DNA from: an uncultured Pseudomonadota bacterium
Lineage (GTDB): Bacteria > Pseudomonadota > Gammaproteobacteria > Methylococcales > Methylomonadaceae
Reading direction: 5' to 3'
NCBI GenBank assembly: GCA_903870545.1
Contig: CAIQDI010000014.1
Span: 1 to 64,000 of the forward strand
DNA: 64,000 nucleotides
The notes beneath the pieces were generated by a model, which was not told the DNA's origin, did not search any database, and was given only the letters and a program-made list of their open reading frames with translations. How positions within the stretch are numbered: position 1 is the stretch's first letter; each line of letters starts with the position of its first letter. Positions 15,467-26,528 of this stretch are shown here, in pieces. The position numbers and the translations under genes are program-made.

Positions 15467-15474
15467 CAGAGGAA

Positions 15475-15895
15475 GAGTTGGCTGGGCGGTCGCCGTTTTA
15501 TTGTAATGATAGAAGGGAGGAAAGTCCGGACTCCATTGGGCAGAGTGCCAGATAATGACTGGGGGGCGTGAGCCTACGGAAAGTGCAGCAGAAAATACAC
15601 CGCTAAATTTGCTTCGGCAAATCAGTAAGGTTGAAATGGTGCGGTAAGAGCGCACCGCGCAACTGGTAACAGTTGTGGCAGTGAAAACCCCACTCGGAGC
15701 AAGATCAAATAGGGAAGCATTCGTCCGCCCTGGCGGCTTCCGGGTAGATTGCTTGAGCGACAGAGTGATTTGTCGCCTAGATGAATGACCGCCCAAGGAA
15801 ATCTTAGTTTTAATTATTTACTGCTGAACAGGCAGTTTAGAATGAGATAAATGATTGTCCTAGACAAAATCCGGCTTATAGGCTGACTCTTTCAC
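15475..15895 (+). ncRNA. rnpB: RNase P RNA (type A), with an insert between P2 and the 3' P4 strand
   Basis: The catalytic RNA of RNase P. Conserved blocks are GGAGGAAAGTCCGGACTCC (near 15518), GGTGCGGTAAGAGCGCACCG (near 15638), GAGCAAGATCAAATAGGGAA, and the 3' ACAAAATCCGGCTTATAGG (15864-15882). P1 forms between GAGTTGGC (15475-15482) and GGCTGACTC (15881-15889). P2 forms perfectly between GGGCGGTC (15484-15491) and GACCGCCC (15787-15794). Normally about 3 nt separate P2 from the 3' conserved block, as in E. coli; here there are 69 nt (15795-15863). The ends are set by homology and not mapped. rsmI lies 8 nt upstream. Confidence 0.93.
15796..15861 (+). repeat. Palindromic element with a type I-F CRISPR-repeat-like core, inside rnpB
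   Basis: The core at 15816-15843 contains CTGCT-GAACA-GGCAG (15821-15835), a 5-bp hairpin with a 5-nt loop, followed by TTTAGAA. The insert can close on itself: AGGA-AATC (15796-15803) pairs with GATT-G-TCCT (15853-15861), leaving one bulged G. The result is an extra helix where many non-proteobacterial RNase P RNAs carry P19. A sister copy lies in murD at 24078-24120. Confidence 0.75.
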
Positions 15896-22943: not shown

Positions 22944-24290
22944 ATGAAAAATATCTTAAAAGAAAAATTCGATTTAACCGCCAATTCTAAAATAATCGTC
23001 GTTGGCGAAGGCATTACCGGAACATCCGTTGCAAAATTTTTAGAATCGCTCGCGTTGCCTTTTTCGATTGTCGATAGCCGAAAAGCGGCTTTCACGTTTG
23101 AAACGTTCAAAGGTGCGACACATTTAATCGTCAGCCCAGGCGTTGCGCTTTCTGAACCGACCATTGCCGACGCTTTAAATTCTGGCACGAAGTTAATCAG
23201 CGATATTGATTTATTCGCAGCGGTTGTAAATGTGCCAATCGTTGGAATTACGGGCGCAAACGGCAAAAGTACCGTGACCACCATGCTCGGCGATATGGCG
23301 CGAACTTGTGGCAAAAATGTTGGCGTGGGCGGAAATTTAGGCAAACCCGCTTTAGATTTATTAGACGACACGGCGGAATTGTACGTTTTAGAATTATCGA
23401 GTTTTCAACTTGAACGCTCGCACGTTTTGAACGCGGCAGCGGCAACGGTTTTGAACATTTCCGCCGACCATTTAGATCGTCACGACGATTTGGAAAATTA
23501 CGCAAAAGCCAAACAAGCCATTTTTAGCGGCGACGGCGTGATGATTTTAAATTCGGATGATGAAATGGTTTCAGCAATGTTCAATTCAACGCGCAAAACG
23601 ATTACCTTTTCAATTAAACAAAAAGCGGATTTTTATTTAGCTAACCATAATTTAATGCACGGCGAAAACGTTTTAATGTCGCTTGCGGATTTACCACTCG
23701 AAGGAAAACACAATGCCGCGAATGCGTTGGCAGCGTTGGCATTAGGCACTGCAATCGGTTTAGATTCTGTGTTGTGTGTGACCGCTTTAAAAAATTTCAA
23801 AGCCTTAAATCACCGAATGCAAAAAGTCAGCACCAAAAATGGTATCAACTGGGTGAATGATTCCAAAGCCACGAATATTGGCGCGTGCATTGCCGCGTTG
23901 GAAGGTTACGACGAAAAAGTTATTTTAATCGCGGGCGGTGAAGGCAAAGGGCAAGACATGAACGAACTCGCGCCCGTCATTTTCGCTAAAGCCAAAGCGG
24001 TCATTTTAATCGGCAAAGACGCTCCACAAATTGAAACCGCAATTGAAATGATGTGCGAGGCGATTGCAACGACTTCGTTTAATTTACTGCCGAACAGGCA
24101 GCTTAGAAATGAAATTGTGCCTGCTTATCACGCCCAAGATATGCAAGAAGTCGTTGCAATCGCGTCGCACATTGGCAAATCCGGCGACACGGTTTTATTA
24201 TCGCCAGCCTGTGCTAGCCTTGATCAATATAAAAATTATCAAGACCGTGGCAACCAATTTGCACAAGCGATTGAGGCGTTACCAGCGTGA
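22944..24290 (+). CDS. murD: UDP-MurNAc-L-Ala:D-Glu ligase MurD with an inserted peptide
   Basis: MurD (448 residues) adds D-glutamate to UDP-MurNAc-L-Ala. ATP site GITGANGKSTVTTMLG, LELSSFQLERSH, WVNDSKATNIGA and LSPACASLDQYKNYQDRGNQF are all present. Between IGKDAPQIE and SGDTVLLSPAC there are about 23 more residues than in E. coli MurD. The extra peptide includes FNLLPNRQLRNE, encoded by the CRISPR-repeat-like element at 24078-24120. The frame is intact, so the enzyme is presumably active with a surface loop. The stop overlaps the ftsW GTG start. Confidence 0.95.
   Translation: MKNILKEKFDLTANSKIIVVGEGITGTSVAKFLESLALPFSIVDSRKAAFTFETFKGATHLIVSPGVALSEPTIADALNSGTKLISDIDLFAAVVNVPIVGITGANGKSTVTTMLGDMARTCGKNVGVGGNLGKPALDLLDDTAELYVLELSSFQLERSHVLNAAAATVLNISADHLDRHDDLENYAKAKQAIFSGDGVMILNSDDEMVSAMFNSTRKTITFSIKQKADFYLANHNLMHGENVLMSLADLPLEGKHNAANALAALALGTAIGLDSVLCVTALKNFKALNHRMQKVSTKNGINWVNDSKATNIGACIAALEGYDEKVILIAGGEGKGQDMNELAPVIFAKAKAVILIGKDAPQIETAIEMMCEAIATTSFNLLPNRQLRNEIVPAYHAQDMQEVVAIASHIGKSGDTVLLSPACASLDQYKNYQDRGNQFAQAIEALPA
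24078..24120 (+). repeat. Palindromic element with a type I-F CRISPR-repeat-like core, in frame inside murD
   Basis: CTGCC-GAACA-GGCAG (24087-24101) followed by CTTAGAAA (24102-24109). Over 24082-24109 this matches the common type I-F repeat pattern at about 26 of 28 positions, counting its variable loop bases as free; that comparison is from memory. The flanks resemble those of the rnpB copy (TTTAATT before, TGA then TTGT after). The element adds in-frame codons and no stop. Confidence 0.75.
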
Positions 24291-25456: not shown

Positions 25457-26528
25457 ACGCATTGTGATTATGGCGGGCGGCACAGGTGGGCATATTTTCC
25501 CTGCTCTGGCGGTCGCGCAATTTTTACAAAATCAAGGCTGGCAAGTTTCGTGGCTTGGCACAAAAGCAGGTTTAGAAAGTCGCATCATTCCTGAAAATGG
25601 CATTGAAATCGACTGGCTTTCGGTTTCGGGTGTGCGCGGAAAAGGCGTGTTGAGTAAATTCACCGCGATTTTTAAACTCGCTAAATCTTGCGTTGAAGCT
25701 CGACGAATTTTAAAACAACGTAAGCCAAATGTCGTTTTGGGAATGGGTGGATTTGTTGCCGCACCAGGTGGTTTGATGGCGAAAGTGTTAGGAATTCCGT
25801 TAATTATTCACGAACAAAATCGTGTCGTTGGCACAACCAATCGTTTGTTGGCAAAAATTGCCACGAAAGTTTTGCAAGGTTTCCCGAATAGTTTTGCGCC
25901 AAACGTTGAAGCGATTTGTACCGGAAATCCGCTTCGTGAAACATTAAAGCACATCCCCCCTGCCCCCCTTCAAAGGGGGGAAAGCCTGAGAATTTTTGTT
26001 CTGGGTGGAAGTCAAGGGGCGAAAGCCTTAAATGAAAATGTACCGAATGCAATTTCGTTATTTGCTTCTCCCCCCTTTGAAGGGGGGCGGGGGGGTTGTG
26101 CTGTTCGTCATCAAACAGGCGCGGCAATGCAAAATGAAGTTGCCGAAAAATATAAAACGTTAAACTTAAACGCAGAAGCCAGCACGTTTATTGAAGATAT
26201 GGCGGCTGCGTATTCATGGGCGGATTTAATCATTTGCCGCGCAGGTGCAATGACCATCAGCGAAGTTGCCGCAATGGGCATTCCCGCGATTTTCATTCCG
26301 CTGCCGAATGCGATTGACGACCACCAAACCGCCAACGCCAAATATCTAACTGAATCCGGCGCAGGCTTGTTAGTAAAACAAAGCGACTTAACAGCTGAAA
26401 ACTTAGCGCAACAAATTGAAAAATTGTGTGAAAATTTACCCGGACGACGCGCCATTTCTCAATCATTAGCCTATTTAAACGCAACCGAAACCGTTGCTCA
26501 CATTTGTATCGCGGAGGCGAAAGCATGA
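25449..26528 (+). CDS. murG: UDP-GlcNAc:lipid I transferase MurG with two inserted palindromes
   Basis: A GT28 glycosyltransferase (359 residues) forming lipid II at the inner face of the membrane. Motifs are [53 protein letters not shown] and [14 protein letters not shown]. Two stretches are foreign to the family: PPAPLQRGE before the GGSQGA loop, and [11 protein letters not shown] after NAISLF. Each is encoded by a C-run/G-run palindrome, in opposite orientations. The frame is intact. The stop overlaps the murC ATG (ATGA). Confidence 0.94.
25950..25985 (+). repeat. C-run/G-run palindromic element, copy A, in murG
   Basis: CCCCCCTG (25955-25962) precedes the palindrome CCCCCCTT-CA-AAGGGGGG (25963-25980). 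About 32 nt match the reverse complement of copy B at 26063-26099. In this orientation and frame it encodes PPAPLQRGE. Confidence 0.8.
26063..26099 (-). repeat. C-run/G-run palindromic element, copy B (inverted), in murG
   Basis: CCCCCCTTTGAAGGGGGG (26070-26087), then C and seven Gs (26089-26095). It is the near-perfect inverse of copy A and lies 78 nt after it. In this orientation it encodes [11 protein letters not shown]. The two copies could pair into a long hairpin in DNA or mRNA. Confidence 0.8.

Follow-up and report, generated by a model that had tools for sequence, protein, structure and literature searches.

A type I-F CRISPR repeat and a second copy of the interrupted segment within the RNase P RNA gene of a Methylomonadaceae bacterium

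The gene for RNase P RNA (rnpB, class A) of an uncultured Methylomonadaceae bacterium is located on the forward strand at positions 15474..15894 of the window, i.e. the whole stretch of 64,000 nucleotides that was analyzed, and is the only rnpB match in this genome (G000). The match to the Rfam model RNaseP_bact_a (RF00010, 317 bits, model 1-367) covers all model positions and contains a 54-nt insertion after model position 335. The gene is 421 nt long versus 350-357 nt in the 13 insert-free full-length rnpBs of the genus, and the extra piece lies between the 3′ strand of helix P2 and the conserved 3′ block. P2 is intact, its 5′ strand GGGCGGTC (15484..15491, forward strand) pairing with GACCGCCC (15787-15794), as is the 3′ block, which begins at 15864. 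A sequence-only reading had proposed that a self-folding insert separates these two elements. The covariance model, matched over its full length, and the lengths of the relatives' genes confirm the insertion, together with the coordinates and helices assigned to it; the proposed outer pairing of 15796-15803 with 15853-15861 is part of the predicted fold of the insert (-16.0 kcal/mol). That the RNA might end before the insert is countered by the Rfam alignment, in which the 3′ strands of P4 and P1 lie downstream of it.

The same reading had noticed that the inner hairpin recurs in murD. Indeed, both genes contain an exact match to TTTACTGCYGAACAGGCAGYTTAGAA: they are the only two in the window, none appeared in 100 shuffles, and no further match was found in the window with up to 3 mismatches. 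Absent from that reading were the nature of the hairpin, which is a CRISPR repeat, and the presence in the insert of a second copy of flanking rnpB sequence. The murD copy (24082..24109, forward strand) is recognized by Rfam as CRISPR-DR4 (42.2 bits), while the 28-nt copy in rnpB (15816..15843, forward strand) is assigned to type I-F through its match to the murD copy and to the array of its own genome and through its fold. It is a diverged copy, as its stem reads CTGCT/GGCAG instead of CTGCC/GGCAG and its 3′ part carries changes; the C6-G20 pair is kept. Based on described Cas6f processing, Csy4 is predicted to cut this repeat after position 15835.

The type I-F system of G000 is of the I-F1 type, with cas1. 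On contig C29, an array of 25 repeats and 24 spacers of 32-33 nt adjoins cas1, cas2/3 and csy1-4, which are all above NCBIfam cut-offs, and Csy4 aligns full length with solved Csy4 chains. Scanning the genome with up to 3 mismatches located stray repeats in murD, in rnpB, at the end of glnA (C7) and, as two copies 58 bp apart, at suhB (C18), with three additional rows at 3 mismatches, to be read against a reversed-pattern control that gave 4 and 3 matches. The rnpB repeat is single and does not form an array of two repeats with ~32-nt spacers. Similarly, no second repeat was found downstream of the repeat in rnpB, glnA, murD or guaB, and no ordinary crRNA is therefore expected from these units.

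Alignment with insert-free relatives gives the order CC-S-x-R-S′-3′ block, in which R is the repeat. The left copy S (15778..15803, forward strand), a copy of the segment TAGATGAATGACTGTCC..., includes the P2 3′ strand at 15787-15794 and follows a CC (15776..15777, forward strand), the position of a type I-F PAM. A short diverged stretch x (15804..15815, forward strand), partly common to the two other carriers of the insert, G001 and G024, joins it to the repeat. The right copy S′ (15844..15880, forward strand) starts directly after the repeat and runs into the conserved block, which makes up its 3′ part from 15864. S′ has nearly the sequence of the relatives' rnpB, with 2 differences in 34 positions aligned to G008, whereas the alignment of S to the relatives needs a gap and shows more changes. 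Taken from G000 by itself, the two copies have a modest likeness, which 2% of shuffles and 4% of window pairs equal, and the duplication therefore rests on the relatives. As judged by this alignment, the rnpB gene carries a CRISPR repeat together with a second copy of the gene stretch that the repeat interrupts. While S′ starts directly after the repeat, the single copy of the relatives starts directly after CC. This dinucleotide precedes the segment in 10/13 insert-free rnpBs of the genus and in the left copies of all three carriers, with CG in its place in G002, G021 and G025. The left copy, behind its CC, matches the guide (the 32 nt after the repeat) at 18/32 positions ungapped, which by itself is not above shuffles.

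In all three carriers, the left copy can pair with the 5′ strand of P2, and in G000 both strands, GGGCGGTC/GACCGCCC, have changed with respect to the commonest pair in the genus, GGGCAGTC/GACTGTCC. In the right copy, the alignment and fold read together indicate that the P2-like stretch has lost full pairing in G001 and G024. Given this difference between the copies, the working P2 most likely derives from the left copy, with the 3′ block most likely coming from the right one. The predicted fold of the insert, located where P19 would lie, is an extended hairpin for G000 and G024 and a weaker one for G001; the outer helix shows a shifted register in the three-carrier alignment, and the C6-G20 pair is absent from the repeats of G001 and G024.

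The genus set of 16 full-length rnpBs was obtained from 21 genomes (18 full-length matches) plus 7 genomes (5 full-length); G006 gave no rnpB match and G009 fragments only. The insert, of 66-69 nt, is present in three of the 16 genes (421-424 nt; G000, G001 and, decayed, G024); all 7 full-length rnpBs belonging to other genera within the order lack it. On this distribution, an inherited P19 helix is rejected, and with it the order-wide conserved helix which the sequence-only reading had named as the alternative to an insertion. In a tree of murD, glnA and ilvC (11 genomes, 3645 columns), the carriers fall in three clades, and G010, the sister of G000, has an rnpB without insert. Changes shared left of the repeat suggest a single origin, followed by losses or transfer. 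Scanning genome contigs with the exact insert pattern, which the decayed G024 form would not match, retrieved one record, a Methylococcales MAG (isolate STB_102), from a collection in which the window's own genome may be left out.

Directly upstream of rnpB and on its strand, G012, G022 and G023 have csy4 and nine repeat-like units that form a degenerate array, the last unit being ~100 nt ahead of the gene. None of the 27 spacer-like stretches of these arrays matches rnpB above shuffles, and the neighbouring array was thus rejected as source of an rnpB spacer. Their spacers are alike across the three species, conserved spacers being unusual for an array. Among the 18 genus genomes surveyed, Csy4 was found in nine (in G022 as two pieces), while G003, G021 and G024, draft genomes of 90-96% completeness, have stray repeats and no Csy4 match.

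Pattern scans of these 18 genomes, 13 of which gave a match, combined with reading of the flanks, located ~20 off-array sites, not counting a unit between cas2/3 and csy1 in G008 and G010. From their translations, we take the neighbouring genes to include, besides rnpB, murD, glnA, suhB, ilvC, nifU/nifS, sulfide:quinone reductase (SQR), guaB, rpsO, fliR, mreB/mreC, dnaG and rplI. Thirteen of the 20 sites were compared with empty or ortholog sites. At eight of them, rnpB, glnA, suhB, ilvC, nifU, SQR, guaB and rpsO, a clear rule applies: the sequence that follows the repeat has its counterpart in a part of the gene lying directly behind a CC. At rnpB, glnA, suhB, guaB and rpsO the repeat stands beside a duplicated target, whereas ilvC, nifU and SQR have mini-arrays with a guide matching the neighbouring gene. 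Two sites follow the rule in part (murD, with CC in 5/9 empty orthologs, and fliR, with CC in 1/4), and at mreB, dnaG and rplI neither CC nor duplication was found, these being bare repeat insertions. With the two partial sites omitted and rpsO and guaB recognized by eye, 8/11 sites with CC corresponds to p 1.3e-9 at the CC/GG rate of 0.04 in the window. The lengths of the inserts vary (54, 62, 66 and 69 bp) and are not a constant 60; the 62-bp insertion at glnA can be divided into ~30 bp of duplicated target and 32 bp holding the repeat.

A local search was also performed with the 32 nt following 43 repeats (33 loci), hits being ranked on identity alone and compared with 40 shuffles each. Nine hits reached at least 22/32, behind CC (8) or AC (1), some of them representing one site in two genomes and two the cas locus. 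Eleven best hits were above their own shuffles (8 CC, 1 AC, 1 TG and 1 AA), a count in which glnA, ilvC and the cas-locus unit each enter from two genomes; the TG and AA hits exceed their shuffles by one letter only. The rnpB (18/32) and suhB (21/32) guides were not above their own shuffles in this search, and both cases rest on relatives. As a viral control, among 26 I-F repeats on 22 contigs, the best local match was CC-flanked once, at 19/32, within the shuffle range of the local search.

Bare I-F repeats precede rplI and dnaG, and one lies between mreB and mreC; they are possible Csy4 cut sites in operon mRNAs. In G022, G023 and G012, a TATAAT-like promoter is followed by a shared mini-array, composed of two repeats 30-33 nt apart, with a similar spacer start in the three genomes; in G022 it lies upstream of a DEAD-box helicase gene.

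In the window itself, the repeat in the murD ORF (22944-24290) is part of a 54-bp in-frame insertion; of the 11 genomes aligned, G000 and G010 alone have it. The insertion (at ~24042-24109) adds 18 aa and includes an intact I-F repeat, which would place a candidate Csy4 site on the murD mRNA within a conserved ORF. Further downstream, the murG ORF harbours, at 25954-26096, an inverted pair of another palindromic element (PPAPLQRGE / PPFEGGRGG), and similar peptides occur at one place in csy4 of G000, G001, G008 and G010.

The 32 nt after the repeat were compared with the self allele and with orthologs for nine guides away from the cas locus. The glnA guide matches self at 23 positions and orthologs at 26-30, the ilvC guide of G010 at 22 versus 25-27, the rnpB guide at 18 versus 26-29, and the nifU S1 guide at 23 versus 25-28. 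Self is thus worse than 12/12, 12/12, 9/9 scored and 6/6 orthologs, respectively, four insert-free rnpBs found later being outside the nine. For nifU S2, identities are similar (27 versus 27-29) and the difference lies in the PAM position, AC in self where 6/6 orthologs have CC. Other guides give a mixed picture: better fits than self are seen in 6/12 orthologs for the ilvC guide of G008 (4 equal, 2 worse), in 4/8 for SQR (1 equal, 3 worse) and in 7/9 for suhB, where the 2 worse carry relics. At guaB, the likeness stops after 19 nt, over which self differs at 2 positions, a self site that the guide-scoring script missed. By identity, guides beside stray repeats thus appear often, not always, to fit relatives' alleles better than self. 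At rnpB, glnA, suhB and guaB such a fit is expected, since S′ is simply native sequence; independent cases are provided by the mini-arrays of nifU and ilvC. At ilvC, those of G010 and G008 occupy the same site with different spacers, both of which match the gene behind CC. Comparison of window divergence gave no clear evidence that the self copies are recoded as outliers of local divergence: windows at least as diverged amount to 26% for glnA, 5% for ilvC of G010 and 0.7% for ilvC of G008, the latter divergence being alike in G007 and G009. The units between cas2/3 and csy1 of G008 and G010 fit their own CC-flanked targets (23 and 22 of 32), and their best hits in other genomes lack CC.

The main array of G000 was considered as a store of guides against kin genes and rejected, 2/24 of its spacers matching any of the 18 genus genomes outside the array. 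The contrast with the stray guides is limited, because the spacer search found nothing weaker than ~29/32 identities and would miss matches as weak as those of most stray guides.

We propose, with moderate confidence, that the CRISPR system targeted own or kin alleles and that a repeat-spacer unit was then copied into the target during repair. A spacer against rnpB would have led to targeting by the I-F system, and repair would have copied the unit from an array into the gene. The right copy would thereby have lost its PAM, the repeat taking the place of CC, and the left copy would either have drifted or, jointly with its P2 partner, have been recoded. The transcript is predicted to fold the unit into an additional hairpin where P19 would lie, and to tolerate it; in cells that produce Csy4, this hairpin may serve as a Csy4 site releasing a 3′ fragment that would start like a crRNA. 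Targeting and repair would account for the repeat and the duplication, for a right edge set by CC and a loose left one, and for genes that still work. In support of this proposal are the identity of the repeat, the duplication seen against relatives, CC at the right junction, a complete I-F system, the pairing of the left copy in P2, the right copy's 3′ block and similar anatomy at other genes of the genus. Against it are the CG in place of CC in 3/13 insert-free rnpBs, the three compared sites with bare repeats and the lack of an array spacer against rnpB among the 27 stretches beside rnpB in G012, G022 and G023. The modest likeness of the two copies within G000, the rnpB and suhB guides that stay within their shuffles, the hits behind TG and AA, the single repeats at rnpB, glnA, murD and guaB, the varying insert lengths and the self copies' lack of clearly outlying divergence also count against it. 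For other systems, escape from self-targeting through the PAM or the seed has been described, as has repair that uses recombination or microhomology (PMC6990116; PMC7521656). Collectively, the ~20 stray repeats of the genus, many by housekeeping genes, were likely left when the CRISPR machinery acted on the cell's own genes.

A different account, which we regard as rather unlikely, is a linked, gene-drive-like exclusion of alleles, in which the repeat with its right copy, or the mini-arrays at nifU, ilvC, suhB and SQR, would provide a guide against the unmodified allele of kin. The neighbouring self allele would mismatch this guide, and transfer of the locus would replace the resident allele. 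The poorer fit of self at glnA (12/12), ilvC of G010 (12/12), rnpB (9/9 scored) and nifU S1 (6/6) speaks for it, as do the AC of self against CC in 6/6 orthologs at nifU S2, the different ilvC-matching spacers behind CC at one ilvC site in G010 and G008, and the scatter of rnpB carriers over three clades. However, fits are mixed at ilvC of G008, SQR and suhB, a fit to relatives is expected wherever S′ is native sequence, the 3′ repeat is missing at single-repeat sites and the local divergence of self is not decisive. We find it fairly doubtful, in the same vein, that units at essential genes, RNase P RNA included, use the old sequence as guide against relatives' unmodified alleles while a mismatching working copy takes the place of the own gene end, making the locus self-protecting and able to spread like a gene drive. 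Binding of the guide to its own gene by partial match, with repression as by CreA of creT in Acinetobacter I-F loci, seems less plausible still and decidedly unlikely. CreA itself was recognized by its partial match to a CC-flanked target close by (PMC10097628); the guides of the cas2/3-csy1 unit in G008 and G010 fit their own CC-flanked targets (23 and 22 of 32; without CC elsewhere), and positions 2-5 and 7-11 of the rnpB guide agree with self. Yet the targets at rnpB, glnA, guaB, suhB, ilvC, nifU and SQR are inside genes, not promoters, and positions 2-5 or 7-9, which CreA needed in that study, contain mismatches to self in the glnA, suhB and nifU guides as well as in the two from ilvC.

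Integration off target, by Cas1-Cas2/3, of a prespacer derived from the repeat, with target duplication, comes nearest to the 62-bp glnA insertion, whose ~30 bp of target and 32 bp with the repeat approach I-F geometry. We judge it unlikely, as the compared inserts hold a whole repeat, mostly with the 3′ edge at CC, vary in length and include bare repeats; the survey searched for repeats, and inserts without a whole one would have been missed. For rnpB, local rearrangement from an array formerly beside the gene draws on the csy4 and nine-unit degenerate array directly upstream of it in G012, G022 and G023. It is very improbable, given the similar anatomy at other genes (glnA, guaB), the 0/27 spacer-like stretches matching rnpB above shuffles and the edge at CC, which a simple rearrangement would not set. 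Dispersed palindromic elements are known, those of Rickettsia being of this type, and an ordinary element of this kind could resemble an I-F repeat by chance. Insertion both in frame in an ORF (murD) and in an RNA gene would be in keeping with this, as would the other palindrome in murG and csy4, but the likeness to the genome's own array repeats and the CC positions leave it scant probability. Little credence is likewise given to a decoy, in which an abundant RNA with an I-F repeat would titrate Cas6f/Cas7f. A solitary phage I-F repeat (Racr) binds Cas6f and inhibits immunity, and Cas6f needs the C6-G20 pair (PMC10651486), which the G000 repeat keeps; however, the rnpB unit is host-borne and one of many sites with duplication and CC edge, C6-G20 is lost in G001 and G024, and the insert has no phage match. 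Two readings were rejected: a transposon, as the flanks inspected share no sequence apart from the repeat and lack constant element ends, and a virus-borne origin, as the insert has no match in phage and plasmid collections and viral solitary repeats lack the target pattern. Of the mobile-element insertion inferred from sequence alone, the insertion at the P19 position and its relation to murD thus stand, while the transposon gives way to an I-F repeat with a CC edge and flanks copied from rnpB.

The locus places a CRISPR repeat inside a conserved catalytic RNA and connects it to ~20 similar sites in the genus, most of those compared having an edge or a guide set by CC. If the proposed origin is right, a defence system can write its own repeats into genes mistaken for targets, and RNase P RNA as well as conserved ORFs (MurD, GlnA) would have survived such writing. 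Whether CRISPR-Cas shapes core genes, limiting or driving the exchange of alleles between related species, thereby becomes a testable question. Among the titles and abstract openings retrieved from an open-access library, which mostly lacks subscription papers and preprints, none reported CRISPR repeats in rnpB or repeat units at PAM sites of housekeeping genes.

In RNase P RNA, P19 is a hairpin between the 3′ strand of P2 and the 3′ conserved block. The rnpB insert fits this position, but is absent from 13/16 rnpBs of the genus and derives from a CRISPR repeat. Off-target spacer integration is known to give rise to CRISPR units away from arrays, as neo-CRISPR loci with target duplication. In contrast, the inserted part is here the repeat itself, with an edge set by CC; instead of a repeat-length target duplication around a ~32-nt spacer, the inserts are repeat-centred and of 54-69 bp, glnA coming near. 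Tn7-like I-F3 transposons insert about 50 bp from the protospacer. Unlike these, the rnpB repeat abuts the protospacer, the insert is 66-69 nt long and the cas locus is I-F1 with cas1. In haloarchaea, Turgeman-Grott and colleagues reportedly (2019) described CRISPR memory from inter-species mating, with array guides fitting chromosomal genes of relatives; there the guides are in arrays, here at the gene.

Self-targeting spacers likewise match genes of the cell itself, the target having changed in PAM or seed, but sit in arrays (PMC6990116), whereas the present repeat units are in or beside the matching gene. Racr (PMC10651486) and the rnpB unit both hold a single I-F repeat that lies away from any array and is transcribed as part of another RNA; unlike phage Racr, the rnpB repeat is chromosomal, with a duplicated target and a CC edge, neither of which accompanies the scanned viral repeats. 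CreTA of type I-F Acinetobacter loci has a mini repeat unit with a spacer that matches, in part, a CC-flanked site close by (PMC10097628). The two flanking repeats of CreTA yield a crRNA-like RNA, CreA, which represses a toxin gene, while rnpB has a single repeat. The units between cas2/3 and csy1 of G008 and G010 resemble CreA and behave as expected of it, whereas at rnpB and the housekeeping genes the target is in the gene itself, which, or whose transcript, also contains the repeat, and relatives often offer a better fit than self.
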